Below, one piece after another: positions 8,949-63,601 of a stretch of 64,000 bases of DNA (positions within the stretch are counted from its first letter, which is position 1; the number at the start of each line of letters is the position of its first letter). The stretch comes from Streptomyces humicola. GTDB lineage: Bacteria > Actinomycetota > Actinomycetes > Streptomycetales > Streptomycetaceae. The stretch spans positions 1 to 64,000 of the forward strand of contig NZ_JANFNG010000028.1 of NCBI RefSeq assembly GCF_024436035.1. Direction: 5' to 3'. The notes below the pieces were generated by a model. That model saw nothing but the letters and a program-made list of their open reading frames with translations. It made no database searches and was not told the DNA's origin. The translations under genes were made by a program, and so were the position numbers.

Positions 8949-8998
8949 CCGAACGCCCGTGCCCTCGGTGCCGTCGGTGCCGTGGCTCCGTGTGCCGG

Positions 8999-19867: not shown

Positions 19868-21211
19868 TCAGCGGACGAACGAGATCTCCGGGTACTGCTT
19901 GGCCGGCCCGTCGAGCAGGGTGCTGTGCTGGTGGCGCAGCTCCTGGTCGAAGAAGGCCGCCAGGTACACGCGCTCGATGTAGATCGCCCGGTTCGGGTCG
20001 ATCGTGCCGAACTCCTGCCGAAGCTGGGCCCGGGAGAGCCCCAGCACGCCCGCCTCCTGGGGCACCATCGCCTCGTTGTCGCTGAACGACAGGTGCGCCG
20101 AGCCCTTGAGCTGGATGTCGAGTCGGTAGCCCGTCAGGTGCGACCAGAACGTGCGCCACGACGAGTCGTCGTTGCGGTTGTGGCTGCCCGAGCTGAACAA
20201 CATGAAGGGGCGGCCCAGGTTCTTGCTGGTCGCCGACCCGAAGAACTGGCCGTCCAGGTTGGCGCCGGCGGCGATGCGGGGGTCGAGCTGCATGGAGGTC
20301 GCCACCGCCGCGCCGCCCAGCGACCAGCCGAACATCCCGATGCGGGACATGTCCACGGCGCCCGAGAGTCCGGCAGGGAGCGTGGCGTGGTCCACGTCAG
20401 GGTTGCCGCCCTTGGCTATCGTGGCGAGTTGGTTGATGACGAAGTGGATGTCCGCCGCCCGCACGTTGAGCGTGTCGGCGGAGTGGGCACCGGACGGCAT
20501 GGTGTCGACCTCGAGTCGCCCGCCGGGAAACTGCACCTCGTTGGCGTCGTGGGTGTGGTCGACGGCTATGACGAGGTAGCCGCGGCTGGCGAGGTCCTCG
20601 ACGAGGGCTGTGCCCATCGCGCGGTCCGAGTGCAGCCCGGTCGAGTACAGCAGGACGGGCAGCCTTCCGAGCTCGGTGTCCACCGGGGCGCCGGTGCGCC
20701 CCGCGGTCTGCGGCAGGGAGACCTGCCACGGGGACAGGCCGCGGGAGGCGAGGAAGTGGTCCCCTGCGATCGACTGCATCCACGGTGCCTGCGCGTGGCC
20801 GGAGGCGGAGGCGGCCGGATACCAGACCGAGACCATCAGCTCACGCGGCTTGTTGCCGGGCACGTACGGGTCCGTGCGGGATTTGTCGACGAGGTGGAGG
20901 TTGATCGTCCCCACCGGGTAACGCCCGGTCAGCGCGGGCAGGTTGAGCTGGAGGGAATCGTCCCCCACGCGGCCGGGCGTGGCGGCCGAGTGGGCGGGCG
21001 CGTTCGGCAACCGCGGCTCGTCGGCGGTGGGTGCCCAGGGCGCGTCCTCGTCGGGCGAGAATCCAGTGGCCGTGGGCGTGGGCTTGCCGGGCGCCTTCCC
21101 GGCGGCCGTCGCAGGCGTTATCCCCGCACTCAGGGCGACGGCCAGCGCGCCCGCCGTACCGACGGCTTTGGCAAGCAGTCTGCGACGGCGGCGCGTTCGA
21201 CGGTGTGACAT
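19868..21211 (-). CDS. secreted PAF-acetylhydrolase-like alpha/beta hydrolase
   Basis: The 447-aa protein has a twin-Arg-like basic N-terminus (MSHRRTRRRRRLLAKAVGTA) and an Ala-rich signal peptide, so it is probably exported. The mature part resembles platelet-activating-factor acetylhydrolase II. The nucleophile elbow is GMFGWSLGGAAVATSM, with a preceding oxyanion region LPVLLYSTGLHSDRAM, an acid in GANLDGQFF and a histidine in KGSAHLSFSD. Relatives hydrolyse short or oxidised acyl esters. AGGGGG precedes ATG 21211, which decides the start. It is convergent with the VOC gene. Confidence 0.83.
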   Translation of the reverse strand: MSHRRTRRRRRLLAKAVGTAGALAVALSAGITPATAAGKAPGKPTPTATGFSPDEDAPWAPTADEPRLPNAPAHSAATPGRVGDDSLQLNLPALTGRYPVGTINLHLVDKSRTDPYVPGNKPRELMVSVWYPAASASGHAQAPWMQSIAGDHFLASRGLSPWQVSLPQTAGRTGAPVDTELGRLPVLLYSTGLHSDRAMGTALVEDLASRGYLVIAVDHTHDANEVQFPGGRLEVDTMPSGAHSADTLNVRAADIHFVINQLATIAKGGNPDVDHATLPAGLSGAVDMSRIGMFGWSLGGAAVATSMQLDPRIAAGANLDGQFFGSATSKNLGRPFMLFSSGSHNRNDDSSWRTFWSHLTGYRLDIQLKGSAHLSFSDNEAMVPQEAGVLGLSRAQLRQEFGTIDPNRAIYIERVYLAAFFDQELRHQHSTLLDGPAKQYPEISFVR

Positions 21212-22013: not shown

Positions 22014-23243
22014 TCATGCCCCGGTATCGGTGTCCCACAGTTCGATACGGTGAGCGTCGACGAGAGCGCTGATGCGGTTCAACACCTCGGAGGCGGCGAG
22101 GGCGTTCAGGCGACGTCCGTCGCGCAGTCGCAGGGCGACCTGGTCGTCGGCGGCCTCCTTGGCACCGATCACCGCCTGGTAGGGCACGAGCCGGGCGGCC
22201 CGGATGCGGGCGCCCAAAGTGCCGTGCTCCGGCCCGGCGAGATCGGTCCGCAGCCCTTGGTCGGCGCATCGCTCGGCGAGCCGTGCGGCTTGGTCCACCT
22301 CGGCGTCGGACACCGGGAGGATCACGAGCTGGGTGGGCGCCAGCCAGGCGGGGAAGGCGCCGCCGTGCTGCTCGATCAGGTGGGCGACGGCCCGCTCCAC
22401 GCTGCCGATGATGCTGCGGTGGACCATGACCGGGCGGTGCTTGGCGCCGTCGGCACCGATGTAGTGCAGGCCGAACCGCTCGGGTTGGTGGAAGTCGACC
22501 TGGACGGTGGACAGGGTCGACTCCCGGCCGACGCTGTCACTGATCTGGACGTCGATCTTGGGCCCGTAGAACGCTGCCTCGCCCTCGGCCGCCTCGTACG
22601 GCAAGCCGCAGCGGTCCAGGATCTGGGTCAGCAGGGCGACGGACCGCCGCCACATCTCGGGGGCGGCCACGTACTTGCCGCCCGGTCCGGGCAGCGAGAG
22701 CCGGTAGCGGGCCGGGGTGATGCCCAGCGCCTGGTACGCCCTGCGGATCATCTCCAGGGCGGCCTGCGCCTCGCCGGCGACCTGGTCCAGGGTGCAGAAG
22801 ATGTGAGCATCGTTGAGCTGGATGGCCCGCACGCGGGTCAGCCCGCCCAGCACGCCGGACGGCTCCGAGCGGTACATGCCGCCCAGCTCGGCCATCCGCA
22901 GGGGCAGCTCTCGATAACTGTGGGAGCGGGAGCGGTAGATCACCGCGTGATGGGGGCACAGGCTCGGCCGCAGCACGACCTGCTCACCGCCCAGATCCAT
23001 GGGCGGGAACATGTCGTCGCTGTAGTGCGACCAGTGCCCGGAGATCTCGTACAGGTCCCGCTTGCCGAGCACCGGCGAGTACACATGCCAGTAGCCAGCC
23101 CGCCGCTCTTGGTCGCGGATGTACTCCTCCAGGCTGTGCCGCACGGCCGCGCCGTCAGGCAGCCAGTAGGGCAGCCCGGCGCCGATCAGCGGGTCGGTGT
23201 CGAACAGGCCCAGCTCACGGCCGAGCTTGCGGTGGTCATGCAT
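22014..23243 (-). CDS. thrS: threonyl-tRNA synthetase lacking the TGS and editing domains
   Basis: The 409-aa protein holds the class II catalytic core and the anticodon-binding domain. Motif 2 is YRSEPSGVLGGLTRVRAIQL, motif 3 lies in HRSIIGSVERAVAHLIEQHG, and the zinc ligands appear in RPSLCPHHAVIY and DAHIFC. Housekeeping ThrRS has about 650 residues; the N-terminal TGS and serine-editing domains are absent here from the start. It is therefore probably a second, inducible or resistance-type copy that cannot clear Ser-tRNA(Thr) itself. The start ATG 23243 has GAGGAG close upstream. A leader peptide with consecutive Thr codons and a terminator hairpin precede it. Confidence 0.9.
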   Translation of the reverse strand: MHDHRKLGRELGLFDTDPLIGAGLPYWLPDGAAVRHSLEEYIRDQERRAGYWHVYSPVLGKRDLYEISGHWSHYSDDMFPPMDLGGEQVVLRPSLCPHHAVIYRSRSHSYRELPLRMAELGGMYRSEPSGVLGGLTRVRAIQLNDAHIFCTLDQVAGEAQAALEMIRRAYQALGITPARYRLSLPGPGGKYVAAPEMWRRSVALLTQILDRCGLPYEAAEGEAAFYGPKIDVQISDSVGRESTLSTVQVDFHQPERFGLHYIGADGAKHRPVMVHRSIIGSVERAVAHLIEQHGGAFPAWLAPTQLVILPVSDAEVDQAARLAERCADQGLRTDLAGPEHGTLGARIRAARLVPYQAVIGAKEAADDQVALRLRDGRRLNALAASEVLNRISALVDAHRIELWDTDTGA

Positions 23244-36149: not shown

Positions 36150-36819
36150 AGGCACTTTCGATGTTCTGCAGCCTCCTCGGGATACCGCGAGGGACGTACG
36201 CGCGCTGCTGGTTACCGAGGCTGAGGGAGTCCACCTGGCGGTCGCGGTACTGGGCCACGTCCAGCCGCTCGGTCCACATCCGCATGGCTCCGACGGCGTC
36301 CACGCGGGACAGGCCGTGCAGCCGGGCCGCCGCACTCGTTCACGACCCGCAGGTGCTGCTGCTCGACGAGCCGTCCTCCGGCCTGGACCCACTGGCCGTG
36401 GACACCATGAGCGCCGTACTGCGGGAGCGCGCCGAGCAGGGAGCTCCGGTGCTCTTCTCCAGCCACCAACTCGACCTGGTGGAGCGGCTGTGCGACCGGA
36501 TCGGCATTGTCCGCTCCGGCTCGATGGTGGCCCGCGGTTCGGTCGAGGAGCTGCGGGCCCGCGGAGGCGAGGGCCTGTACATCGAGATCGACGGTGCACC
36601 ACGGGATTGGGCCCAAGCCCTACGCGGCATCGACTCGTTCCGCAGTCAGGGGCGGGGCACCCTGGTACGTGTCACGACGGCTGCGACGAGGGCGAGCTCA
36701 TACGGCACGTCGCTTCTTTGGGCCGACTGCGCATCTTCCGGCGACAACAGGCCACGCTCTCCGAGCTGTTCCGTGCGTACGTGACTGACGCCGACGAGTC
36801 TACGGAGACTGCAGCATGA
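36150..36819 (+). pseudogene. ABC transporter ATPase (NatA type) broken by an internal inversion
   Basis: From about 36328 the plus strand encodes the second half of an ABC ATPase: LVHDPQVLLLDEPSSGLDPL (Walker B), VLFSSHQLDLVERLCDRIGI (H-loop) and VRSGSMVARGSVEELRARGG. The preceding signature region is on the other strand: the reverse complement of about 36203-36327 reads RLHGLSRVDAVGAMRMWTER, LDVAQYRDRQVDSLSLGNQQR, including the signature LSLGNQQR. Turned over, it fits exactly between the flanks. The Walker A part is missing and a further frameshift lies near 36685, where the frame passes to GELIRHVASLGRLRIFRRQQ. The gene cannot make an active ATPase. Confidence 0.75.
36203..36327 (-). other. 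inverted ABC-signature segment inside the pseudogene
   Basis: About 125 bp encode 41 residues of an NatA-type ATPase in the opposite orientation to the surrounding gene. CGTACG and GCGCGC palindromes lie at the left junction. Boundaries are good to a few bases only. Confidence 0.7.
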
Positions 36820-37049
36820 GCCGTATGAACGAGGGGACCACCACGACCAGGGCCAGGGCGGGTGGTTCCGCGACGGCGGACGTATGGCTCGTCATGAAGC
36901 GGGAGACAGCCGCCCGGGTCGCCAACCGTGCCTACATTATCGGCACGTTGCTCAACATCGCGGTGATCCTGGGGCTGCTGTACTTCTTCGCCCCGTCCCA
37001 GTCGGACGAGCACCATGCCACTGCGACCGTCGCCGTTACCGGCCCGTGA
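36816..37049 (+). pseudogene. truncated ABC-2 permease (NatB type)
   Basis: The 77-aa frame overlaps the ATPase stop (ATGA) and opens MSRMNEGTTTTRARAGGSAT. It contains VWLVMKRETAARVANRAYII and one membrane helix (GTLLNIAVILGLLYFF), the usual N-terminus of NatB-type permeases, and stops after VAVTGP. A normal permease has about 400 residues with six helices, so the rest has been lost. Together with the broken ATPase it marks a dead exporter operon. Confidence 0.7.
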
Positions 37050-37215: not shown

Positions 37216-37421
37216 CGTCACGAACCGGTGGGAGTACTGGCTCCGTCGGGGATCTTGTCCTTCCAGGGTCATCTGCCTCGGCGCCACCACAGGGTTTGGT
37301 GTACTTCTCGGGCGTCGAGGTCTGGAAGTGGGATCGAGATCTTGATCGGGGGTCAACTCATGCCGGGTGGTGCTGCCCACGCATCGATGCCAGCCTGCTC
37401 ACCGTAGCCAAGCAACTCGTC

Positions 37422-37675
37422 GTCGATGGGTGGAGGTCTACGAGGACGACCCCAAGACCGACTCCGGCGCCCGTACCATCGCGCTCGACTCCGCCACCGT
37501 CACCGTGCTCAAAGCTCACCGCGAGCAGCAGGAGAAGGACCGCGCCGAATGGGGCACCGCCTGGGTCGAGACCGCGACGGATGCGCCGTCCGCTCACGCA
37601 AACGGCCCCGGACCCATCGTCCGAGGCCGCCGATCAAGCCTCCGGAGACCCAAAACTGCAGGTCATTTTAGGTGA
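37422..37675 (+). pseudogene. middle fragment of a tyrosine recombinase (integrase)
   Basis: The frame VEVYEDDPKTDSGARTIALD followed by SATVTVLKAHREQQEKDRAE resembles the region of phage-type integrases before the catalytic R-H-R-Y box (PKT..G.R.I.LD...V..L..H). The catalytic part is missing; the sequence degenerates and ends a few bases before the tRNA-like repeat at 37682. This is the expected position of an integrase next to its attachment site. Confidence 0.6.
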
Positions 37676-37681
37676 AGCCGT

Positions 37682-37725
37682 GAGCCCCCTGTCGGGTTCG
37701 AACCGACGACCCCCGCTTTACAAGA
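37682..37725 (-). repeat. attachment-site copy: 3' end of tRNA-Thr(TGT), left
   Basis: The minus strand reads CTTGTAAAGCGG, GGGTCGTCGGTTCGAACCC and GACAGGGGGCTC: anticodon loop with TGT, variable loop, T-arm and acceptor strand of a tRNA-Thr. The D-arm and 5' acceptor are missing, so this is a tRNA fragment, not a gene. The same 44 bp recur exactly at 42674-42717. Integrative elements commonly use this part of tRNA genes as att core. 37726-38063 contains no gene I can support. Confidence 0.8.
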
Positions 37726-38063
37726 TCTTCCGCAGGCACGATGTATCTCAGTCGATCGATCCTTGCCGCGTGCTGCCTGGTCCGTAGAGTGCCATCGAGG
37801 TTTTCTGATGTACGCCGACGTTGCTGTCAGTCTTCGCCGTCAGGACACGGCCTTCGGTGATGTCACGGCGGCTGCTCTGCGCGCGTCCCACGGGCATATG
37901 ACCTGAGCCGCCTCGGCATCTTCGTGCAGGACGAATACCTCCTCGCGGAGACAGTCCTGCGGTTGTGGACCAGGCCGCCGGAGTGACCCGTCCGGTGTTC
38001 GACCTACGCAGCCTCTACGCGGCGTCCGCAAAGAAGGGCCCCGAGCCGCCCAGCCCTGGACGT

Positions 38064-39173
38064 CTAATGGTGGCCGCTTCGCGGATTGGGCGATCGGTCG
38101 CGTAGCGCACACACCACAGCCCAGGCGACCGACAGCATGGGGACGGCCACGACCGCGCCGATAACACCAGCGACGATGCCACCCGCGACCACTGAGACTG
38201 CGATCACCACCGGGTGGAGCCGGACGGCCCAAGCCATCACGAGCGGGTGCAGGACATGTCCTTCGATCTGCCCGATGATGACGATGAGCAGCAGAACGAC
38301 CACCGCGATGATCGGGCCTCGTCCGGCCAGGGCGACCACGCTCGCTACAGCCAGCGCGATGGGCGATCCGACGAGCGGGACGAAGGAGGCGAAGAACTCC
38401 AGGACTGCCAGCGGCAGGGCGAGCGGCACCCGGAGCAGGGACAGGGCGACACCGACCAGGACAGCGTTGGTGACTGCCACGATGATGATGCCGCGGGTGT
38501 AGCCGGCGAAGGTAGTCCAGGCTGCCCGGCCCGCGCGGTCCCAAGCCGATCGGGAGGTCCTGGGGAGCTGGAGGTGGAACCAGTGCCACAGCCGCTCTCC
38601 CGAGTAGATGAAGAAGATGGAGCAGAACAGCGCCAGAGCCGCTCCGGTGGCCGCCTCCACCACTCGGCTGGCACCGGTGAGTGCGCTGCTGACCAGGAGG
38701 GAGCGGTGCGAGGAGATGAACGAGCCGATCTTGCCCTGCAGATCCGACAGCGTGCGAGGGCTGATCCGGAAGGGGGGACGCTCCAGCCATCGTTCGATCT
38801 GTCCGATACCGCCGCGGAACTCGGTAGCCAACTTGGCCGACTCGCCCGCCACCAGGTAGCCCGCCAGGGATAGGAGGGCGAAAAGCAACAACAGGCTGCC
38901 CAGTAGGGCCAACACCACCGCGAGAGACCGGGGGAGATGGCGCCCCATCAGATCGGTCAGCGGCCGCAGCGCGGACGTCACCACCAGGGCGAGGAATACG
39001 GCGACCGCGACCAGCTGGAATCGTCCAAGGATGGTGAACGTCTCGTAGACGAGCACCCCGACAACCAGGAGGCGCCAGGCGTAACCGGCCGCTTTGCGCA
39101 GGCCCCGGGAGACCGACTCATCGTCGCCACGCGGCGTGGCCTGGACGGCTGCGGCCGAGCGGGCCCGGTCCAC
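38064..39173 (-). CDS. AI-2E family transporter (PF01594-type permease)
   Basis: The protein has about 369 residues and seven or eight membrane helices. The family's C-terminal signature is clear: LEFFASFVPLVGSPIALAVA and IIGQIEGHVLHPLVMAWAVR, followed by LHPVVIAVSVVAGGIVAGVI. Members include the E. coli AI-2 exporter TqsA and sodium/proton antiporters of halophiles, so the cargo is open. The start is uncertain; GTG 39173 has GGGAAAG upstream, and other GTG codons lie 39-42 nt further out. It lies inside the segment bracketed by the tRNA-Thr repeats. Confidence 0.82.
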   Translation of the reverse strand: MDRARSAAAVQATPRGDDESVSRGLRKAAGYAWRLLVVGVLVYETFTILGRFQLVAVAVFLALVVTSALRPLTDLMGRHLPRSLAVVLALLGSLLLLFALLSLAGYLVAGESAKLATEFRGGIGQIERWLERPPFRISPRTLSDLQGKIGSFISSHRSLLVSSALTGASRVVEAATGAALALFCSIFFIYSGERLWHWFHLQLPRTSRSAWDRAGRAAWTTFAGYTRGIIIVAVTNAVLVGVALSLLRVPLALPLAVLEFFASFVPLVGSPIALAVASVVALAGRGPIIAVVVLLLIVIIGQIEGHVLHPLVMAWAVRLHPVVIAVSVVAGGIVAGVIGAVVAVPMLSVAWAVVCALRDRSPNPRSGHH

Positions 39174-39530
39174 GGCTTTCCCGGAGTGCGCGGGGCGGCT
39201 GCCTAGCACCACGGAGCGGGTCCGGGGCCGCGATTGGTGTCCGCGCGACCTCCGTCGAGGGCCGAATGACCCGTCACTCACCTCGTGCCACCGCCTCCCG
39301 CCTTCTGACAGGAGGGACGGCAGAGTACGCCGGCGCCAGTCAGTTCCAGAACGTCGCTCAGCGACGACGGCTTCTCCATGGCACGGCTCTTTCCGGTGCC
39401 GTCCCTTCCCGCTTGACTGGCCGGCTCCCGGCTTCAGTTCCGGGCCGCCGCCTGGCCGTCCGCGCGGCCTGGGTCGAGCGCACGAGCGGCCAGGATTCAC
39501 CCCGGCCGGCCTGCGGAGCGGCGGATTCGA

Positions 39531-39704
39531 TCAGCGCTTGAAAGCGTCCTTGATGTTCTGTCCGGCCTGTTTGACGCCACCCTCTGCTTGCTCGCCCTTG
39601 CCCTCGGCCTCGAGGTAGGGGTCATCCATGGCCTTGCCGGTGTCCTTCTTGATCTTGCCTTTGATCCTCTTGACAGCGTGCTCAGCCTTCTTGCCCGTAC
39701 TCAT
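39531..39704 (-). CDS. csbD: CsbD-family stress protein
   Basis: The 57-aa protein opens MSTGKKAEHAVKRIKGKIKK, continues with DTGKAMDDPYLEAEGKGEQA and ends GQNIKDAFKR. This is the CsbD-like pattern of repeated short charged helices. In Bacillus subtilis csbD is a sigma-B general-stress gene; the function of the protein is unknown. AAGGAG precedes ATG 39704. A GTTT-N14-GGGCAT promoter upstream fits stress-sigma control. Confidence 0.85.
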   Translation of the reverse strand: MSTGKKAEHAVKRIKGKIKKDTGKAMDDPYLEAEGKGEQAEGGVKQAGQNIKDAFKR

Positions 39705-39762
39705 GGCCAACTCCTTTCAACGGGCTTCAAACACCACCCCGTGGGGGCCTTCAGGGCCATCC

Positions 39763-39786
39763 ATGCCCTTACAGCATCACTTAAAC
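39763..39786 (-). promoter_or_regulatory. SigB-type promoter for csbD
   Basis: GTTT (39786-39783) and GGGCAT (39768-39763) are separated by 14 nt. This fits the Streptomyces SigB pattern GNNT-N14-16-GGGTAY with one mismatch and lies about 60 nt before the csbD start. Confidence 0.5.
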
Positions 39787-39865
39787 CATATTTAGTGGGT
39801 TTGGAGTGTTCTGGGTGGGGAACGCGGTCTGTCGGTGATTACCCGCACCACAGGGGGTGAGCCCG

Positions 39866-40423
39866 ATGTCCACAGGGACACTCATCACCATCATCGTCCC
39901 CATAGCGGTTGTGGTCGTCCTCCTCGCGTTGGCCACATCGCTCCTCATGCGCCGCCGTCAGCTGCGGAAGCGCTTCGGACCGGAGTACGAGCGGGCGGTC
40001 CAGACCACTGACAGCCGTTTGGCCGCCGAGCGGGAATTGAGTGCACGCGAGAAGCGGCACGACTCGCTGAATATCAAGCCCCTCCCCCCGGCAGTCCGAG
40101 ACCGGTACAGCCATGACTGGACGCGAGTGCAGGAGGAGTTCGTCGACAGCCCTGGGGAAGCGGTACACGATGCGGACCGACTGGTGACGACCCTGATGCA
40201 GGAACGCGGTTACCCGACCGAGGGCTACGAGCAGCGACTCAAGGACCTCTCCGTCGAACACGGCCGCACCCTCGAGCACTACCGGACCGCCCACGAGATC
40301 GACGAACGCAGTACCCGTCACTATGCGACCACAGAAGAGTTGCGAAGCGCCATGGTGCACTATCGCGCACTGTTCGAAGAACTCCTCAGCGACGGCGGCC
40401 AGCAACGCCCCGTCCGGGCCTAG
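39866..40423 (+). CDS. single-pass membrane protein with FVD-x2-AV domain
   Basis: The 185-aa protein has an N-terminal membrane helix (LITIIVPIAVVVVLLALATS) followed by a cytoplasmic coil with RRQLRKRFGPEYERAVQTTD. The C-terminal domain contains DWTRVQEEFVDSPGEAVHDA and ELRSAMVHYRALFEELLSD. The next gene encodes a soluble protein with the same domain, so the two are related. GGGGGTGAG lies 6 nt before ATG 39866, which is why I prefer it to GTG 39857. It is divergent from csbD and probably shares its stress regulation. The biochemical role is unknown. Confidence 0.75.
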   Translation: MSTGTLITIIVPIAVVVVLLALATSLLMRRRQLRKRFGPEYERAVQTTDSRLAAERELSAREKRHDSLNIKPLPPAVRDRYSHDWTRVQEEFVDSPGEAVHDADRLVTTLMQERGYPTEGYEQRLKDLSVEHGRTLEHYRTAHEIDERSTRHYATTEELRSAMVHYRALFEELLSDGGQQRPVRA

Positions 40424-40493
40424 CCGAGGAACCCCGGCCGCCATGAACTGAACGAACACAAGGGCCGGATCGAAACGGAAAGAGCACAGACTC

Positions 40494-40955
40494 ATGCAAC
40501 GCAAACCAGACACCGCTGAAGTCGGCCTCTCAACCGAGGACCTCGCCAGCACCCAGGGAAACACCGAAGACACGACAGCGCCGCCGGCCGAACAACCCAC
40601 CTACCCAGGTGAAGGCACGGCCGTCGAGGCGGAACCGGCCGCGCCGAAACCCCAGGAGGGCGGGCCCGCAGCGGCGGAAGAGGAGATGCCGCAACTCCTC
40701 AACGAGCATGACCAGGAGACCTTCCGATCCCAGTGGAAGGAAATCCAGAACAAGTTCGTCGACGACCCGCGCGACGCGGTGCACTCGGCTGACGCTCTCG
40801 TCGCCACCGTCATGCAATCGCTTGCCACTACCTTCGCCGAGTACAAGCAGGAACTCGAAGGACAGTGGAATCGAGGCGAACAGGTGAGCACTGAAGATCT
40901 ACGGACCGCACTGCAACAGTACCGCTCGTTCTTCAACCGCCTGCTCAGCACCTGA
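40494..40955 (+). CDS. acidic protein sharing the FVD-x2-AV domain of its neighbour
   Basis: The 153-aa protein has a disordered acidic and Pro-rich N-terminus (about residues 20-65) and a helical C-terminal domain. The domain reads FRSQWKEIQNKFVDDPRDAV, HSADALVATVMQ and DLRTALQQYRSFFNRLL, aligning with the C-terminal half of the preceding protein (QEEFVDSPGEAVHDADRLVT). It has no membrane helix. It lies 70 bp downstream on the same strand, so the pair is probably an operon. The function is unknown. Confidence 0.75.
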   Translation: MQRKPDTAEVGLSTEDLASTQGNTEDTTAPPAEQPTYPGEGTAVEAEPAAPKPQEGGPAAAEEEMPQLLNEHDQETFRSQWKEIQNKFVDDPRDAVHSADALVATVMQSLATTFAEYKQELEGQWNRGEQVSTEDLRTALQQYRSFFNRLLST

Positions 40956-41075
40956 GTCGAGACGGTGCGGAGCAAGATTCGAACCTACCGCACCGCCAAA
41001 TTGTGGCAGGAGTTCTCGACGCAAGGTGATCACTGTTCCAGGCGGGGAACAAGAACCACCGATATGGAGGATGCA

Positions 41076-41231
41076 ATGATCGCCCTCGGCATCATTCTAT
41101 TGATCGTCGGATTCGTGGCCAACATCGCCATTTTGTGGACCATCGGCATCATACTGGTCGTCATCGGAGCCGCACTGTGGCTCCTTGGATCCATGGGGCA
41201 CGCGGTCTTCGGCCGGCGACACTACTGGTAA
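41076..41231 (+). CDS. DUF6131-like small membrane protein
   Basis: The 51-aa protein is almost entirely two membrane helices: MIALGIILLIVGFVANIAIL and IGIILVVIGAALWLLGSMGH, ending GRRHYW. This matches the small DUF6131 family of actinobacteria, which has no known function. GGAGG lies 5 nt before ATG 41076, so the ATG 12 nt earlier, which overlaps the ribosome binding site, is less likely. Confidence 0.75.
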   Translation: MIALGIILLIVGFVANIAILWTIGIILVVIGAALWLLGSMGHAVFGRRHYW

Positions 41232-41236
41232 AAGGC

Positions 41237-42448
41237 ATGGAAGACGCGGAATTCGGCGCGTTGCTCGGTGCACTGCTGGAGGAGTCGCATCATCTGCCCG
41301 TGGAGGGAGTGCCTGCCCTGCTGTCACGGGCGGCCCAGCAACTCGGGCTGGACGAGGCCAACCTCTACCTGGCCGACGTGCAACAGGAGCGGCTGATGCC
41401 GTTGGGCACGTCGGCAGACGATCACGGCGCTGGGCTGCTGGTCGATGCCACGCTTCCGGGCTGGACGTACCGCACGCTCTCGTTGCAGGTGGCCGAGAAC
41501 GACCAGGACGGTCTGACGGCGTGGCTTCCGCTGATGGACGGCATCGAACGCGTCGGTGTGCTGGGGGTGCGCGCCCGATCGCTGGACACCACAATGCTGG
41601 GCCGCTGCCGCGCGTTGGCGTCGCTCGCCACCTTGCTGGTGGTGTCCAGGAGCCTGTACAGCGACACCTATCTGCAGGTCCAGCGCGCCCGACAGATGCA
41701 GCTACCAGCGGAGATGGTGTGGGCCTTTCTACCGCCACGGACGGTGGGCACCCAACAGGTCACCTCCAGCGCCGTGATGGAGCCGGCCTACGATATCGGG
41801 GGCGATGCCTTCGACCACTCGCTGTCCGACAAGGTACTGCACGCCACGATTATCGACGCGATGGGCCACGATGTGGCCTCGGGCATGGCCGCGGCCCTCG
41901 CCCTGGCGGGCTGCCGAGTCGCCCGTCGCGCCGGGAGTGGCCTGTCCGAGATCGTGGAGACCATCGACCAGGCCCTGGCTCGGTGGCTCCCGCGTCGCTT
42001 CATCACCGCGATCTTTGCCCACCTCGACTTGATCTCCGGACGACTGAGCTGGGCCAACTGCGGGCACCCACCGCCGTTGCTCATCCGTGGCCAGCACGTC
42101 ATCACCGGCGCCTTGGAGCACCACGCCGAGCTGCCGCTGGGTCTTGGCCCCGGCTACCCCGACGTGCCCCGCCACATTCACCAAACCCAGCTGGAACCCG
42201 GCGACCGCGTCCTGCTCCACACCGATGGTGTCACCGATGCCCGCTCCGGCACCGGGGAGGTATTCGGGGAGGAGCGCTTCACCGACTTCATCATCCGTGC
42301 CACCGCCGCCGGCGAGCCAGCCCCCGAAGCCCTACGCCGCCTGCTCCGCGCGATACTCGTCCACCAGCACGGACGGCTCGACGACGACACCACCATTCTG
42401 CTCTTCGAATGGCATCCCCAGCCGAACACGGGGGTCGGAACGACTTGA
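41237..42448 (+). CDS. SpoIIE-family PP2C serine phosphatase with GAF-like sensor
   Basis: The 403-aa protein has an N-terminal GAF-like region (about 1-165) and a C-terminal SpoIIE phosphatase domain. Metal-site motifs are intact: MEPAYDIGGDAFDHSLSDKV, ATIIDAMGHDVASGMAAALA, NCGHPPPLLIRGQ, LLHTDGVTDARS and DDDTTILLFEW. Such enzymes dephosphorylate anti-anti-sigma proteins and thereby release alternative sigma factors. The start ATG 41237 lies 5 bp after the DUF6131 stop with AAAGG upstream, so it belongs to the same operon. Its setting with csbD suggests a role in general stress signalling. No ATPase (anti-sigma) domain is fused. Confidence 0.87.
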   Translation: MEDAEFGALLGALLEESHHLPVEGVPALLSRAAQQLGLDEANLYLADVQQERLMPLGTSADDHGAGLLVDATLPGWTYRTLSLQVAENDQDGLTAWLPLMDGIERVGVLGVRARSLDTTMLGRCRALASLATLLVVSRSLYSDTYLQVQRARQMQLPAEMVWAFLPPRTVGTQQVTSSAVMEPAYDIGGDAFDHSLSDKVLHATIIDAMGHDVASGMAAALALAGCRVARRAGSGLSEIVETIDQALARWLPRRFITAIFAHLDLISGRLSWANCGHPPPLLIRGQHVITGALEHHAELPLGLGPGYPDVPRHIHQTQLEPGDRVLLHTDGVTDARSGTGEVFGEERFTDFIIRATAAGEPAPEALRRLLRAILVHQHGRLDDDTTILLFEWHPQPNTGVGTT

Positions 42449-42489
42449 ACCCGGTAAGGAAGATTCACCGCCGCTCCGGTCGGTCGCCA

Positions 42490-42582
42490 CGTGGGCCCTA
42501 CACACACGTTGTGCAGGACCGACAGCGGGAAGCGATCAACCACATGGACCGCCTGCTCAAAAGGCGCCGTCAGCAGCGCTGA
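42490..42582 (+). pseudogene. C-terminal fragment of a tyrosine recombinase (integrase)
   Basis: The frame YTHVVQDRQREAINHMDRLL ends KRRRQQR and a stop. It is the C-terminus of a phage-type integrase, where the first Tyr of YTHV is the likely nucleophile. The catalytic core before it is missing. It ends 91 bp before the right tRNA-Thr repeat, mirroring the left side. Confidence 0.6.
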
Positions 42583-42673
42583 CATCAGCGGTTGCCGTCA
42601 ACCATAGCGGTCAAAGGCCCCGGACCTTGATCGATCCAGGGTCTTTGGCAGTCGTTTTCCCTGGTCAGGCATG

Positions 42674-42717
42674 GAGCCCCCTGTCGGGTTCGAACCGACG
42701 ACCCCCGCTTTACAAGA
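42674..42717 (-). repeat. attachment-site copy: 3' end of tRNA-Thr(TGT), right
   Basis: This is an exact 44-bp copy of 37682-37725, again with anticodon loop, T-arm and acceptor 3' strand but no D-arm. The DNA on either side differs from the left copy. The complete tRNA gene is not in the window. Confidence 0.8.
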
Positions 42718-42930
42718 GAGGGATGGGCCCTGGGCCTTGACCTGCGGGTCTGTGAGCTGGGCCGACGGCTACGGTCTTGACCGTGGTTGTCCGGTGTTGA
42801 CCGTAGCTGCCCGCTGGATCTGGCGCGGGAGTGAGCGTGCGCAGGTCCGTGATCTCGGCTCCATGGTCGAAGCAAGGGAGGCCGTAATTCGGTTGATGGA
42901 CTGGCCGCGCGTTGGTAGCAATGCCGCAGG

Positions 42931-43544: not shown

Positions 43545-43640
43545 CGCAGACGGCTCGGGGGGCTTGCCTCCCGACTGTTCCAGCAGGTCACGGCGCCTGT
43601 GGCTCGTCCACGTGGTACCGCTCGTCCACAGATAGTCCAC
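43545..43640 (-). repeat. mini-frame repeat, copy 1
   Basis: From GTG 43640 the minus strand reads VDYLWTSGTTWTSHRRRDLL and EQSGGKPPEP. A closely similar frame occurs at 47477-47578. The two DNA segments align over about 85 bp. In this copy the frame continues past the similarity without a prompt stop. Confidence 0.6.
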
Positions 43641-43711
43641 GGCGCGGCAGTCGGCCTCTCTCCGCGGCTCCTTCGCACCGGGCAATCACGGGGCGGTAGT
43701 TAGGCCCGCGG

Positions 43712-45968: not shown

Positions 45969-47372
45969 TCAGGAGCTACCGCCGTACTCCCTCAGCAACT
46001 TGTTGAGGTTTCGAATCTTATCCACGTCCGCTCTCGGCAAGGGATCGCTGCTGTTGAAATGCATGACGTTGTTGCGGATCCTGCGGATCTCCTCGAGCCG
46101 CCCGATGAACACCTTACGGTCCAACGGCCACCCCAGTTGTTGCCACCGGTCAGGGTTCTCAAGGAGCCGGAGATAGTCTCCGACGGTCATGTCACCGAAA
46201 GACGTGACGCGCTCGCCCGCTGGGTCGCACAGGCCGGTCACCTCGGACAAGGTGAAGGTCCCTGCGATGACCTGCCGCAGCCTGCGATCCATCTCTCCGA
46301 TCAGAAGGAAGTGGCTGGCCAGGTCGCCGTACGCCTGCGCTACGTCGGCGGCGGTGACGATACCGGCGATTGCGTTGTGATGGTCCTTTACAAGTACGAA
46401 GTCCAACTCCGCAAGCGCGGGCAGGATATCGATCAGATCATGATCGTAACGAACGTCGCGGGCATCCACGATGGCCTGGGAGAGGGAAGCATCCGGATCG
46501 GCATGCCGGGCACGGGCTATGGACTTCCAGGAGAGGGCACCCCGCAGGTTGTGCGGACCAGCGAGGACGGGGAGTTGAGAGAAGTCATGGAGCGCCATCA
46601 GCGTGATTGCCTCCTCGAAGGTCGCAGTCGGCTTGACACTGATCACTCCACCAAGGGCGGAAGGCAGCGTGCCCACCGTCAATCCAGTCTCGCGAGATTC
46701 ATCCTCGTCTGAAGCGGTCGTGAACGCCGGTGCACCGGCGACGAGCCCTTCTGCCGAATTCCCTTCCGCAGCCTTGACGAGCTGGATGGTCGAGGCCAGC
46801 GGGACCTTGTCGAATCCCGGCGCGGTAACCAGGCTGTGGTTAGCGAGCTCGGCCTCGATCTGCTCATTGACGAGACCGCGCCCCGTGGCGCCCCACCAGG
46901 TCAGGAGTTCCTCTACCGAAAGAGACTGCGGCTGGCCAGCCTCGGCCAGCTCACGGGCCCTCTTCAGCCGAGCGTGCCTTTCACTAGGCGCAACCGAAGT
47001 TTGCTGCTCTTCCGCCGTGTCCGGATCGGCTTCCTCGGCAGCCTGGTCCAGCAGTTGCTGGCGCAAGGTGGCGAGAGGTCTGCCGTCGGTCACCGCCCAT
47101 GCAGTCCACCCGTCGAACGATCCCCTGCCAACGGCGACAGCGGCGGCCTTGGACGGCGAGCGGAACTCTTCCCCGTCGTCCAGGCGAATCCAGCCCTTGG
47201 CGGTGACGGTGGCATGATGGGTATCTCCGACGAGGGGCCGTACGAACGTCAGCCGCTCACCTTCCTTGAGCAGCCCGTTGCTCAGCAGGTCGGCGAGTCT
47301 CACCCGCCGCCCGTCCAGGAGGTACCGGGCCCGGGAACGTCTTTCGGTCGGCTCGGCTGCCGAATCGCTCAT
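45969..47372 (-). CDS. RAMA-CBS-CBS-HEPN protein, putative defence or stress effector
   Basis: The 467-aa protein has four parts. Residues 17-93 match the RAMA domain (VRLADLLSNGLLKEGERLTF, WIRLDDGEEFRSPSKAAAVA), which accompanies restriction enzymes and methylases and is thought to read modified DNA. A charged linker follows, then a segment at 150-200 (LTWWGATGRGLVNEQIEAEL). Two CBS motifs cover about 230-350 (GVISVKPTATFEEAITLMAL; DFVLVKDHHNAIAGIVTAAD), the fold that binds adenine nucleotides. The C-terminal 110 residues are HEPN/Swt1-like and contain RNNVMH (Arg433-His438), the RX4H signature of HEPN ribonucleases. The chain thus joins a DNA-modification reader, a nucleotide sensor and a likely RNase. 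AAGG precedes ATG 47372. No partner gene is adjacent. Confidence 0.7.
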   Translation of the reverse strand: MSDSAAEPTERRSRARYLLDGRRVRLADLLSNGLLKEGERLTFVRPLVGDTHHATVTAKGWIRLDDGEEFRSPSKAAAVAVGRGSFDGWTAWAVTDGRPLATLRQQLLDQAAEEADPDTAEEQQTSVAPSERHARLKRARELAEAGQPQSLSVEELLTWWGATGRGLVNEQIEAELANHSLVTAPGFDKVPLASTIQLVKAAEGNSAEGLVAGAPAFTTASDEDESRETGLTVGTLPSALGGVISVKPTATFEEAITLMALHDFSQLPVLAGPHNLRGALSWKSIARARHADPDASLSQAIVDARDVRYDHDLIDILPALAELDFVLVKDHHNAIAGIVTAADVAQAYGDLASHFLLIGEMDRRLRQVIAGTFTLSEVTGLCDPAGERVTSFGDMTVGDYLRLLENPDRWQQLGWPLDRKVFIGRLEEIRRIRNNVMHFNSSDPLPRADVDKIRNLNKLLREYGGSS

Positions 47373-47476: not shown

Positions 47477-47578
47477 CTACGCACCCGGCTCCGGAGGGGG
47501 CTTGCCTCCTGCCTGTTCCAGCAGGTCAGGGCGGCTGTGGATCGTCCATGTGGTGCCGCTCGTCCACAGATAGTCCAT
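47477..47578 (-). repeat. mini-frame repeat, copy 2
   Basis: ATG 47578 opens a 33-codon frame reading MDYLWTSGTTWTIHSRPDLL and EQAGGKPPPEPGA before a stop. It matches the copy at 43545-43640 at 26 or so of 30 residues. It may be a real very small protein or the end of a larger lost gene present twice. Confidence 0.5.
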
Positions 47579-47686
47579 GCCCGGTGAGTTGGCGGCGTCC
47601 TTGCTGCCTGTTCGCCCCGGCCGTGGGCTGTGATCAAACTCTGCTCGGCGAAGTGGCCACATCTCAAACCTTGTTGAAAACCCGTG

Positions 47687-50054: not shown

Positions 50055-51327
50055 TCAGGGTGTCAGCCGGTGCAGGTCACGCGGGAACAGCGTGGTGCGG
50101 CGGATGTTGTCGGCCCCGGTGAGGCGGGCAGTCCACCGCTCCAGGCTCAGGGCGAACCCGCCGTGCGGCGGCATGCCGTGGGCGAAGGCGGACAAGTAGC
50201 TCTCGTACGGCCCGGTGGATTCACCGCGTGCGGCGAGGGCCTTACTCCTCGTGCCGGTGCAGCCGCTGGCCGCCGGTGACCAGTTCCAGCCCGCGGAAGA
50301 GCAGGTCGAAGCTGTTGGAGTACTGCGGGTGGCCCGGCTCGGGGTGGGTGTAGAAGGGGCGCTTGGCCATCGGGTAGCCGGTGACGAACAGGAACTCGCT
50401 GCCGTGCTCGCGTAGCGCCCACTCGCTCAGGTACCGCTCGTGCGCCGGGGCGAGGTCCGGCTCGTCCGCGCCGAGCATGGCCATGGCGTCGCCGAAGTGG
50501 ATCTGCGGGATCTCGGCCGGCACCTCCGGCAGCTTCACGCCGAGCAGCTGGACGGCCTCGGCGGCACGCGACGGGACGGCTTCGACCAGCCCGGCGACGG
50601 CCTCCCGCACCACGGCCATGACGTCGCGGTGGTCTGTGATGAACCCGAGTTCGGCGTCGAGGCTGGTGTACTGCGCCAGGTGCCTGGCGGTGTCGTGCGG
50701 CTCGGCGCGGAAGACCGGCCCGGTCTCGTACACCCGCTCGAAGACCCCGACCATGGCCTGCTTGAAGAACTGCGGCGACTGGGCCAGGTACGCGGTGCGG
50801 CCGAACCAGTCGAGGGTGAAGACGTTGGCGCCGGACTCGGTGGCCGAGGAGACGACCTTCGGGGTGTGGATCTCGGTGAAGTCCAGTGCGTCGAGGGCTG
50901 CGCGGAAGCCCGCGACGGAGGCGGCGGAGATCTGGTACGGGGCGCGCAGCTGCGGGTGCCGCAGGGTGACCGGGGCGTGGTCCAGGATCGTCGGCAAGAC
51001 CGCAGGCACGGTGGGCCGGTACAGGTCGAACGGCGGCGCCTCCGCCAGGCTCGACAGCGGCTCGATCTCGGGCGAGGTCAGCTCGACGCCGCCCGGGGCT
51101 TGGGCGTTGGCGGTCACGGTGCCGCGCACGCGCAGCACGGTCTCCTCAGGGAAGTCGCCGCCCGGCTCGGTCAGGACGATCTGGGCGAGTCCGGAGCGGT
51201 CACGCAGGATCAGGAAGGTGACGGATTTCAGCTCGCGGCGGCGGTGCAGCCAACCGGAGACTTCAACGGTTTGGCCGACGTGTTCTGGCAACTGGGCGGC
51301 CAGCACGCGGGTCGTAGGGTGGATCAT
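50055..51327 (-). pseudogene. aspS: archaeal-type aspartyl-tRNA synthetase, frameshifted before motif 3
   Basis: GGAGGG precedes ATG 51327. The N-terminal OB domain (GQTVEVSGWLHRRRELKSVT) and class II motif 2 (VYETGPVFRAEPHDTARHLA) are intact and typical of the short, archaeal-type AspRS of about 430 residues without the bacterial GAD insert. At 50242 the frame stops after GGQRLHRHEE. One frame over, it continues GESTGPYESYLSAFAHGMPP, HGGFALSLERWTARLTGADN and IRRTTLFPRDLHRLTP to a stop at 50055. About five bases seem deleted. Motif 3 (GGFALSLERW), needed for ATP binding, lies after the break, so the product should be inactive. A T-box leader precedes it. Such AspRS often also charge tRNA-Asn. 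Confidence 0.8.
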
Positions 51328-51332
51328 CGCGG

Positions 51333-51600
51333 CCCTCCAAGGGCGTCGTGGTGATCCCTTGGGGGTGCGGGCGAGAAGGGCAACTCGCTGTGCCACCGCA
51401 CCTTCGCCGCCGCAGCTGGGCGACGGCCTCGTTCGGGCCTGATGACGGGGGCTGGCCGGCGGGGCATTGGACCGTACGGGTCGTTCCTCCCCGCGCTCGG
51501 GAGGGTCTTCGCCTCGGGGCGCGAGGCTGCCTTCACAGCTCCCGGCAGCTCTCTCGGCTCGCGTGAGCCCGCGGCTACTCGTCTCCGTCGACGCGTTACG
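51333..51600 (-). ncRNA. T-box leader of the aspS gene, probably translational type
   Basis: On the minus strand, AGAGAGCTGCC-GGGAGCTGTGAA-GGCAG (51554-51527) is the Stem I distal bulge and apical loop of T-boxes. GAGTAG and GAAGAC lie at the specifier loop. GGTGGCACAGCGAG (51397-51384), with CTTCTCGCCC after it, matches the T-box sequence (GGUGGNACCGCG). CCAAGGG (51362-51356) and CCCTTGG (51343-51337) then form a hairpin that covers the ribosome binding site, which suggests control of translation. The specifier reads GAC (Asp) in one register or ACC in the next; GAC fits the gene. The 5' end is not defined. Confidence 0.8.
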
Positions 51601-51686
51601 TGCCAGGGTAAAGGCCACCTCACCACCCCGCCAACGAAATCCTTGCGGTGGCTGATATCGAGCTGCCTCCGCGTGACCGGCCTTGG

Positions 51687-58473: not shown

Positions 58474-61400
58474 ATGGACCTCAACCCGCTCGACATCATC
58501 AACGACCTGAACAACGCGATCGGCCACGACACCGCGAGCGTCCTGGAGTTCCTCCACATCACCGACCCCGCCGTCAAGCCCGAAGGGGTCCGTGAGGTCG
58601 CGCGGAAGTGGACGGCTCTCGCCCACGCGGTGGAGGACTCCAGCCGCGACGCCCACGACGCCCTGAGCGGCGTGGTGTGGGAGGGCAAGGCCGCCGACGC
58701 CTTCTCCCAGCGCACCGCGAAGGTACAGAACCAGGCCGCCGACATCGCGAACGCCCTGCACCAGGGCAGCGGGGCGATCAACCAGTTCGCCGACGCTGCG
58801 GAGAGCCTGATCGACGAGATCGGCAAGATCGCGGCAGAGATGATCGAGTTCGAAGTCGCCGGGCTGGCCTTGAGCGTGATCACCGCCGGGTTCTCCGAGG
58901 CGGCCTCGACCATCGCTGCTGGCGAGCGCGCCATGAAGATCGTGGAGCTCATCGGGAAGATCGAGGAAGAGGGCGGGATCCTCGGCAACGCGATCAAGGC
59001 GGTCATGGAGGCGATCCGTGGCCTCGACCGCGTCCTGGAGGCGCTGAAGGACATCAAGGGCGTCGCCACGGTGGCGAAGATGGCCAAGGACGGCATGGCC
59101 TTCTCCGCCTTCAGCACTCTCCTGGAGGACCCCAAGGCGCTGACCGACCCGGGCAAGCTCACCGACATCCTCGCCGAAGGCGCCATCGCCGGCATCGGCT
59201 TCGGCGTCCTCGGCAAAGCCCTCGGCAAGGGACTGAAAGCGATGTCCCCAGCGGCGCTGTCCGCGCTGAGCAAGGGCCTGTCCAAGCTTGATGATCTGAC
59301 ACCGGCCCGGTTCAAACTCCGCCCGGAGGACATGGAGAAGCTGCAGTCGGCAATCGAGAACGGCGCGAAGCTGTGCAGGCAAGACCCAGTCGACGTCGTC
59401 ACGGGCGACATGCTCCTCACGCAGAGAGACGTGGAACTGCCCGCAGCGCTGCCGGTGGTTCTGGAGCGCACGCATCTCTCGTCCTACCGCTCCGGAGGTT
59501 GGTTCGGTCGCACCTGGGCGTCTACGCTCGATCAGCGGCTCCAACTCGATGAGCACGGCGTGGTCTTCGCCACCGCCGACGGCCTGCGCCTGTGCTACCC
59601 GATCCCGCAACCGAACATCCCGGAGTACCCCGAGCACGGGCCGCGCTGGCCCCTGTTCTGGGACGGGCGCCACGGCGGGCGGATGCACATCACCGACCCG
59701 ACGGCCCGTCGCACCTACGTCTTTGCCCACCCATTGTCCACCAAGACCGACGGGGTGATCGACCTTCCGCTGCGCGCCATCGAGGACCGCAACGGCAACC
59801 GCATCACCATTGCCTACAGCATCGGCGAGGTGCCGGTCGAGATCCGCCACGACGGCGGCTACCGCATCGCCATCGACCGCCACCCCGACCAACCCCGCAT
59901 CACCGCCCTGCGTCTGCTCGACACCGATGGACCCGATACGAGCACCACCCTGGTCCGCTACGGCTACGACCAGGCCGGCCATCTCACCGAGGTCATCAAC
60001 TCCTCAGGCTTGCCCCTACAGTTCACCTACGACCACGTCGGCCGTGTCACTTCCTGGACCGACCGCAACGGCACCATCTACACGTACACCTACGACACCC
60101 AAGGCCGCTGCATCCGCGGCGAAGGCTCCAACGGCTACCAGTCCGGCACCTTCGTCTACGACGACGCCAACCGCACCACCCACATCACCAACGCCCTCGG
60201 CCACACCACCACGGTCGTCTACAACGAGGCGTATCGCCCCATCAGCGAAACCGACCCGCTCGGCAACACCACCCTCACCGAGTGGGACGCCGACAACCGA
60301 CTCATTACCGCCATAACCGACCCGCTGGGCCGAACAACTCAAAACGCTTATGACGACGCAGGGAACCCCACGACCATTCTGCGCGCTGATGGTTCGGTAA
60401 CCGATATAACCTACAACGCCCTCGGCCTGATCACTTCGGTGACCGAACCTGATGGCGCCATCTGGCGTTATGAGCACGACGACCGCGGTAACCGGACCTT
60501 GGTTGTGGACCCCAGCGGTTCCATGACCAAGTATGAGTACGACGGCCACGGTCGGCCTATGACCGTCACTGATGCGCTCGGCCATACCCATCGGATCGCG
60601 ACCAACAACGCCGGGCTACCGACAGCCGTCACCGACCCGCTAGGTCGCACCACCACCCTGGAACGGGACGCTTTCGGTCGGCTCACCGAAATGACCGATC
60701 CCCTGGGTCACCGGATATGCCACGGCTGGACTCCCGAAGGAAGGCTCTCCTGGCGCGAGGCCGCCGACGGTTCCCGTGAGACCTGGGCATGGGACGGCGA
60801 GGGCAACCTGACCGCGCATACTGACGCGGCGGGGAATACGAACCTCTACACCTACTCTTACTTCGATCTCCTTGCCTCCCACACCACACCTGATGGGACG
60901 ACCTACCGCTTCACCTATGACGCGGAGCTTCACCTCACCTCTGTCGTCAACCCGCAGGGCAGGACATGGTCCTATGAGTATGATCCAGCCGGGCACCTGG
61001 TCGCCGAGACTGATTTCAACGGTCGTCGCCTCACCTATGTGCATGACGCCGCTGGTCAACTCGTGCGCCGTACGAACGGCGCCGGTGAAACGGTCACGTA
61101 TCAGCGTGATCTTCTCGGCAGGACGATTGAGCGACGGGGCGGAAGCCACAGCGAAACTTTCCAGTACGACTCTGCAGGCCGACTCCTCCGGGCGGCGAAC
61201 AACGCCGCCACCGTGGCCTTCGAACACGACCAACTCGGTCGAGTACTGACAGAGAGCGTGAACGGGCGGCAATCCTCGTATGAGTACGATCTACTCGGGC
61301 GTCGCACTTCTCGGCAGCTACCGTCTGGGGCCGTCTCGCAATGGACCTACGATGCGGCCGGCCAGCCCACCGCACTGTCCGTGGGCGGCCACACGCTCAC

Positions 61401-63032: not shown

Positions 63033-63118
63033 ATGCAGCATCGCCTCTTGCTGCGTCCTTACACCGGACGTGGCGGCACAGGACGAACTGAGCCAAGGCG
63101 TCGCGAAGATTGCAGAGC

Positions 63119-63601
63119 ATGAGTGGCACCGAATCCGTCGTGGCCCTGATCGAACTGCTGCACAACAACCCGGCTACCTGCGACTGGACGGGCGGACTCA
63201 GCACGCAGGACATCGCCCTGGCTGAGGAACAACTCGACGTACAATTCCCCCCGTCCTACCGATACTTCCTCGCCGAGCTGGGAAGCTGCGAAGTAGGCAG
63301 TGAGGAATTTCTCGGTATCTACCGGACGTCTACCCTGGGGGACGCTCTCTTGGGCACCGTCTGCGAAACCCTCGATGCTCGGGCGAACCCTCGATTCCCG
63401 CCCGACCTTGTGGTCATTCAGTACGACGGGATGGGAGGGCTCGTTTCACTCGATGTCTCCCGCAAGGACGACCAAGGCGAGTCACCAGTCGTCGTCTGGG
63501 ACCCCGGCTCCGCTGACCGCGGAGGCCCTGAATTGCTCGCCCAGGACTTCGGCACCTACGCGCTGCGCGAGTGCACCAGAGCCCTGAATCGCCCGGCATG
63601 A
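63119..63601 (+). CDS. SMI1/KNR4 (SUKH) superfamily protein, second immunity candidate
   Basis: The 160-aa protein has a SUKH fold: LSTQDIALAEEQLDVQFPPS followed by YRYFLAELGSCEVGSEEFLG, the usual opening of SMI1/KNR4 proteins, and a C-terminal DFGTYALRECTRAL helix. SUKH proteins are frequent immunity proteins in toxin loci and may neutralise this or an earlier, displaced tip. ATG 63119 is the best start, with only a weak ribosome binding site. It lies 86 bp after the first immunity gene on the same strand. 63602-63788 shows no gene. Confidence 0.83.
   Translation: MSGTESVVALIELLHNNPATCDWTGGLSTQDIALAEEQLDVQFPPSYRYFLAELGSCEVGSEEFLGIYRTSTLGDALLGTVCETLDARANPRFPPDLVVIQYDGMGGLVSLDVSRKDDQGESPVVVWDPGSADRGGPELLAQDFGTYALRECTRALNRPA

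Follow-up and report, generated by a model that had tools for sequence, protein, structure and literature searches.

The DNA analyzed here (the window) covers the initial 64 kb of an 86,092-bp contig of Streptomyces humicola (NZ_JANFNG010000028.1, here C20), so numbered that window and contig coordinates are the same; the genome assembly is a 7.07-Mb draft in 78 contigs. The subject of this report is a five-kilobase segment of the window that is enclosed by two identical 44-bp repeats in the same orientation, at 37682-37725 and 42674-42717. Each repeat is the 3′ part of a tRNA-Thr(TGT) gene on the minus strand, comprising the anticodon loop, the T-arm and the 3′ acceptor strand, and the two are referred to below as attachment site (att) copies 1 and 2. 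No such 44-bp repeat pair arose in 100 dinucleotide shuffles of the window. Neither copy completes a tRNA, no complete tRNA was detected in the 64-kb window by ARAGORN, and an Rfam scan of the window at gathering thresholds gave no match.

A preliminary description of this locus, made from the letters of the window, had reported the identical tRNA-Thr 3′ ends, expected the full gene to the right of the window and proposed a search for further copies. The reported ends and the expected position were borne out: the repeats are exact, and a search of the flank revealed an intact tRNA-Thr(TGT) gene on the same contig at 67002-67078 (minus strand), 3 kb to the right of the window. This gene contains a third copy of the 44-mer at contig position 67004, in the same orientation and matched exactly by both att copies. 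On contig C20 the 44-mer occurs only these three times (with up to 14 mismatches allowed), and the 40-base core of the repeat likewise occurs only three times in the whole assembly (up to 3 mismatches).

Genes of the five-kilobase segment

Between att copies 1 and 2 (37726-42673, unit B) lie six open reading frames, and the Pfam scan confirmed the gene content given in the preliminary description. On the minus strand are an AI-2E family transporter (38064-39203; PF01594, E 8.7e-45, scanned as 38064-39245) and a CsbD-like protein (39531-39704; PF05532, E 1.7e-13). The remaining four are on the plus strand: U188 (39857-40423), which matches no Pfam or NCBIfam family above cut-off; U153 (40494-40955), which is weakly related to U188; a DUF6131 protein (41076-41231; PF19626, E 1.9e-9); and a SpoIIE-type PP2C phosphatase (41237-42448; PF07228, E 3.1e-42, scanned as 41135-42448). 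The ratios of nonsynonymous to synonymous substitution rates (dN/dS) against the counterparts in Streptomyces sp. RPT161 are 0.15 for CsbD, 0.19 for U188, 0.17 for U153 and 0.22 for SpoIIE. These low values are a sign of constraint since the split from RPT161, without proving anything for the time since insertion.

Relatives of U188 were found in 64 of 81 genomes of the family, the present genome included. We analyzed 82 U188 loci, namely 80 named loci kept out of 330 confirmed ones plus L017 and L018 (L017 and L068 being the same contig). A U153 relative adjoins U188 in 75 of the 82, and within the fetched flanks DUF6131 is present at 25 loci, AI-2E (searched with a query bearing an upstream extension) at four and CsbD at two. 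None of the fetched flanks contains the tRNA repeat core, even with up to 5 mismatches. A second, partial cluster of U188, U153 and DUF6131 is present in the same genome on contig C16 (L018, 10118-11528), with 70-78% DNA identity.

This cargo may have a stress role, to judge from the names of its families. A literature search yielded no paper uniting at least four of the subjects CsbD, AI-2E, SpoIIE, stress and Streptomyces, and a sigma-B-like promoter pattern had no match in the gap between CsbD and U188, either here or in RPT161.

Integrases beside the repeats

An integrase gene or a remnant of one is located 0.1-0.6 kb to the left of each of the three repeats. Integrase A (64829-66421, plus strand), beside the intact tRNA and outside the window, is of full size, with its Phage_integrase domain interrupted by one in-frame TAG stop codon. 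Integrase C, to the left of att copy 1, persists as two pieces on the plus strand. The first (37395-37574, 180 bp, frame-shifted) comes from the middle of the catalytic domain and has 81-82% DNA identity to the integrases of loci L158, L161 and L163; at the protein level it is 78-81% identical over 46-47 residues to these integrases (the first of the two in L158), and 57% identical to integrase A. After a deletion of ~330 bp follows the second piece, the C-terminal tail with the att-proximal arm (37591-37681), which matches L155, L158, L160, L161 and L163 at 80-84% DNA identity, the match continuing through the att core. Of integrase B, to the left of att copy 2, only the last 29 codons remain, including the YTHV...RLLKRRR tail (about 42493-42582, plus strand). 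This scrap is 83% identical over 24 residues to the L165 integrase and 74% over 27 residues to the second L158 integrase; no match to integrases of the A and C types was listed.

The three types are distinct from each other: C and B integrases are 31-43% identical, C and A 53-54%, and B and A 33-36%. For example, the L161 integrase is 53% and the L165 integrase 33% identical to integrase A. The C-type integrase of L161 is most similar to one encoded by a Streptomyces phage (50.7%) and to one from a Streptomyces plasmid (46.9%), which is compatible with either origin. At the DNA level, similarity reaches up to the att copy for the C remnant with L158, L161 and L163, and for the B remnant with L158, L164, L165 and L166; B-type integrases adjoin att in L158, L165, L172 and L187. 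The motif search used for integrases at the array stretches of other genomes overlooked several degenerate ones. The contig thus holds three units consisting of an integrase followed by an att copy, and each of the integrases is broken.

The tRNA-Thr site in related genomes

The repeat core was searched at up to 2 mismatches in 297 genomes of the family, the present one included, and was found in 109. At least two copies are present in 37 of these 109 and at least three in 11, with some of the extra copies on other contigs or strands and with fragment status checked for a part of them only. For example, another genome of the genus (G001) has three copies, one within an intact tRNA and the others in two fragments separated by 2.4 kb, together with an integrase that is 92% identical to A over 160 residues. 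The two G001 fragments (L015, contig G001:C169, positions 3695 and 6088) share the same two substitutions, and their right flanks are almost alike, which would fit a tandem duplication of one element. In G073 (L158) the order is that of the present locus: C-type integrase, att repeat, B-type integrase, tRNA. The tRNA-Thr(TGT) gene is therefore a recurrent landing site in the family for at least three kinds of integrase that are 31-54% alike.

To the right of the tRNA, DNA matching the contig in the same order was present in 20 of the 20 stretches fetched. On the left, the chromosomal backbone represented by window positions 7.6-9.0 kb is separated from the tRNA by 1.7 kb in G006, 5.1 kb in G013, 7.5 kb in G016, 11.9 kb in G025 and 58 kb here, so that the site is empty or filled differently in these four relatives. 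The G006 backbone stops near window position 8958. The remaining fetched stretches had no left-backbone match within their length. In G013, G016 and G025 the stretch between the counterparts of window positions 7.6 and 7.7 kb is matched, in inverted orientation, by 20511-20692, which is possibly a rearranged piece.

Probable accretion of elements at one tRNA gene

We consider it very probable that the locus is a tandem array of decayed site-specific elements accreted at a single tRNA-Thr(TGT) gene, with the five-kilobase segment as its middle unit. Two features expected of such accretion are present. On its 3′-end side, the intact tRNA is accompanied by displaced 3′ fragments that share its orientation, and each unit has an integrase of its own, one of them full-size with a stop and two of them remnants of different families. 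Because an integrase or its remnant lies to the left of each repeat, each repeat can be assigned as the right end of the element to its left. Accordingly, unit A would extend from 42718 to the end of the window (64000) and on to contig position 67001, ending at the intact tRNA-Thr and holding the integrase A gene, with unit B and the outermost remnant C to its left.

In this model, at least three elements with integrases of kinds A, B and C would have entered the 3′ part of the same tRNA-Thr(TGT) gene in succession. Each would have supplied a tRNA 3′ end of its own, which kept the gene at the right edge whole and displaced the older 3′ end leftward as a 44-bp att copy. If the tRNA was rebuilt at the right each time, the elements farther to the left should be the older ones, and this agrees with the state of the integrases, the outer two being scraps and the inner one having a single stop. 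Deletions would then have trimmed the outermost element, C, down to a few hundred bases and left unit B with the cargo and the last 29 integrase codons, while integrase A has one stop. During this decay of the mobility genes the cargo was probably retained by selection, as the dN/dS values of 0.15-0.22 suggest. Since the scraps come from different integrase families, three integrations are the minimum. The tandem integration that the preliminary description had offered as one of two options thus stands, at one tRNA gene, but its count of two elements does not, there being at least three units with the third integrase outside the window.

The ends of the units were compared with left ends of elements in other genomes. 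Two A/C-type left ends that were tested, one of them that of the G001 A-type element, gave scores of 102-208 over 130 bp when compared with the six partners most like them. In a comparison with 12 A/C-type left ends, the 39 bp at 37337-37375 (plus strand) scored highest among 2150 windows of the contig on both strands (43.5, the next being 41.5), and none of 1000 shuffles scored as high. Although the margin is small, this is suggestive of a left arm of A/C type, lacking the att core, for the outermost element (remnant C). A short membrane-protein-like frame at 36816-37049, which looks like a truncated permease, ends just to the left of this array edge. DNA searches of window positions 9000-37400 in six relatives left the position of the array's left border undefined, the matches listed being scattered over many contigs, and a translated comparison of the unit contents with 13 array stretches was set aside, most of what it returned being GC-rich background. 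The G+C content is 0.65 in units A and B, 0.69 at window positions 9-37 kb and thereby near the 0.70-0.71 at the ends of the contig. The lower value in the units speaks for accretion, as do the order shared with G073, the three copies in G001 and the short distance between backbone and tRNA in G006.

Several observations weigh against a simple succession of three elements. First, unit A starts at 42718 with a left end that is unlike those of A/C type; the best score of this left end, 36, is with another class, no shuffle out of 380 scored as high, and it has a TGACCTGCGG motif in common with several left ends of that class. The count of events is therefore a lower bound: unit A may have lost its A-type left end by deletion, or it may be a fusion with a fourth element. 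Second, the left end of unit B is only weakly like any class (best score 34, reached by 1 of 380 shuffles), and the 44-mer search of the contig found no att core bordering remnant C on the left. Third, the comparison with differently filled sites rests on other species, none being from the same species. Fourth, the assembly is a draft of 78 contigs, yet all three copies of the repeat share one contig.

The last of these observations concerns the cargo. RPT161 has the genes for CsbD, U188, U153 and SpoIIE in collinear order, with DNA identities of 78-82%, so that most of the cluster occurs there free of the repeat in the 16.6 kb fetched, at a locus with neither AI-2E nor DUF6131. Syntenic cargo without the repeats was what the preliminary description had named as speaking against its proposal, and it does so for the idea that the cargo is specific to the element; the repeats, the integrases and the tRNA are left standing as evidence. 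It can be deduced that the cargo does not define the element, and the use of these genes as the signature of a mobile element is weakened by their occurrence elsewhere without repeats. Judged from its sequence and distribution, the cargo is a cluster of chromosomal type lying between att copies, and the locus would show how such a cluster can persist there while the mobility genes decay.

On a bolder version of the accretion model, integrase lineages unrelated to one another would have made four or more integrations at one 39-44-bp target, recombination between att sites would have left units with ends of mixed lineage, and the segment would be a domesticated stress unit still movable in cis by any of the integrases that use the site in this bacterial family. 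We regard this version as unlikely.

Alternative explanations

The alternative that survives best holds that element B did not deliver the cargo, which would instead be ordinary chromosomal DNA that acquired its flanking att copies when neighboring elements recombined or underwent a deletion between them. Both the collinear, repeat-free block in RPT161 and the partial paralogous cluster on C16 of the same genome would be accounted for in this way, as would the ends of unit B, which are not clearly of one class. However, the G+C content of the five-kilobase segment equals that of unit A and is below that of the contig ends, and no match to U188, U153, CsbD, DUF6131 or AI-2E was printed (E 1e-5) in 22 tRNA-Thr stretches of other genomes, each of at most 20 kb, such that cargo located farther to the left would escape. 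A chromosomal origin of this kind is, in our estimate, doubtful.

Another possibility is that the locus is a still-mobile actinomycete integrative and conjugative element (AICE), for which att sites at tRNA 3′ ends and tyrosine integrases are described as typical (PMC3218068). All three integrases are broken, however, and none of the 11 matches to FtsK/TraB (PF01580) in the genome and none of the four to RepSA (PF20199), the initiator type that was searched, are on contig C20. The statement of the preliminary description that the segment carries no transfer genes is thus supported, as none were found by the FtsK/TraB and RepSA search of the contig or by the Pfam scans of the called frames, in which relaxases were not searched for separately. 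A working or complete AICE was rejected on these grounds and is highly improbable.

Equally hard to credit is the second option of the preliminary description, a single element whose one integrase was split into complementary halves by a later insertion or rearrangement: the scraps do appear at first sight to be a middle part and a C-terminus, as described, but the left scrap has retained a C-terminal tail of its own, with the att-proximal arm, adjoining att copy 1, it is of the L161/L163 type (78-81%) and the right scrap of the L165/second L158 type (74-83%), no single intact integrase joining both sequences was seen, and we rejected this reading because the B and C types are 31-43% identical.

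Comparison with known arrays

The locus is a new and clearly readable example of a process of accretion that is already in print. In a Streptomyces population, AICEs and defective AICEs have been described as accreted in tandem at a tRNA-Arg gene, with a different integrase in each element (PMC9513070). The present locus resembles that array, as described there, in its differing integrases, identical direct repeats, single tRNA and old remnant at the far end, and differs from it in its tRNA-Thr(TGT) target, in the lack of TraB or RepSA matches on the contig and in its three broken integrases. The tRNA-Thr gene is also a known target, both of AICEs with pSE211-type integrases (PMC3218068) and of an integrative and conjugative element (ICE) with 93-nt repeats (PMC9513070). 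The likeness considered is that of the actinomycete tRNA-Thr target, and the repeats here are of 44 bp.

Similar in structure are the cis-mobilizable elements (CIMEs) of Streptococcus salivarius, which are att-flanked, carry cargo and measure 1.2-13 kb, and the gene-less microCIMEs of 130-220 bp; in the same streptococcal survey the most decayed units are reported to be always the farthest from the target gene (PMC7563491). With an exact att copy on both sides, 29 remaining integrase codons and six open cargo frames, unit B fits the description of a CIME in its structure, and remnant C resembles a microCIME. Like such elements, unit B would depend for any movement on a supplied integrase able to act on the att copies at its two sides. 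The S. salivarius elements described differ in that the target here is a tRNA, that remnant C has integrase pieces and no left att core, and that no parental ICE or integrative and mobilizable element was identified here.

Among 3919 islands, the Islander resource lists 125 tandems of at least two and four of at least three members (PMC4383910). Like these, the present array has a tRNA gene with displaced fragments at the island ends, arrays being called there if each member has a fragment and an integrase. Since Islander, according to its description, drops candidates that lack an open integrase reading frame, it might miss units B and C, which have integrase remnants only, and the same could apply to other island finders with this requirement.

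Other genes of unit A and the window

A gene in unit A at 45969-47372 (minus strand) encodes a CBS-domain protein that has a RAMA domain at its N-terminus and matches the NCBIfam DS11 anti-phage family at 264.5 bits (cut-off 260). On either side of this anti-phage-like gene is one copy of a 98-nt direct repeat (43558-43655 and 47496-47593, 86% identical). Two paralogues of aminoacyl-tRNA synthetases are also encoded: one of threonyl type (22014-23243, minus strand), matching thrS positions 171-563, and one in unit A that is like Asp-tRNA(Asn) ligases, above cut-off (50242-51618, minus strand). Both are possible self-resistance genes. Near the right end of the window, unit A encodes a WXG100/RHS repeat protein (58474-62787, plus strand), followed by a SUKH-type protein (contig 63110-63601, plus strand), and the two could form a polymorphic toxin and immunity pair.

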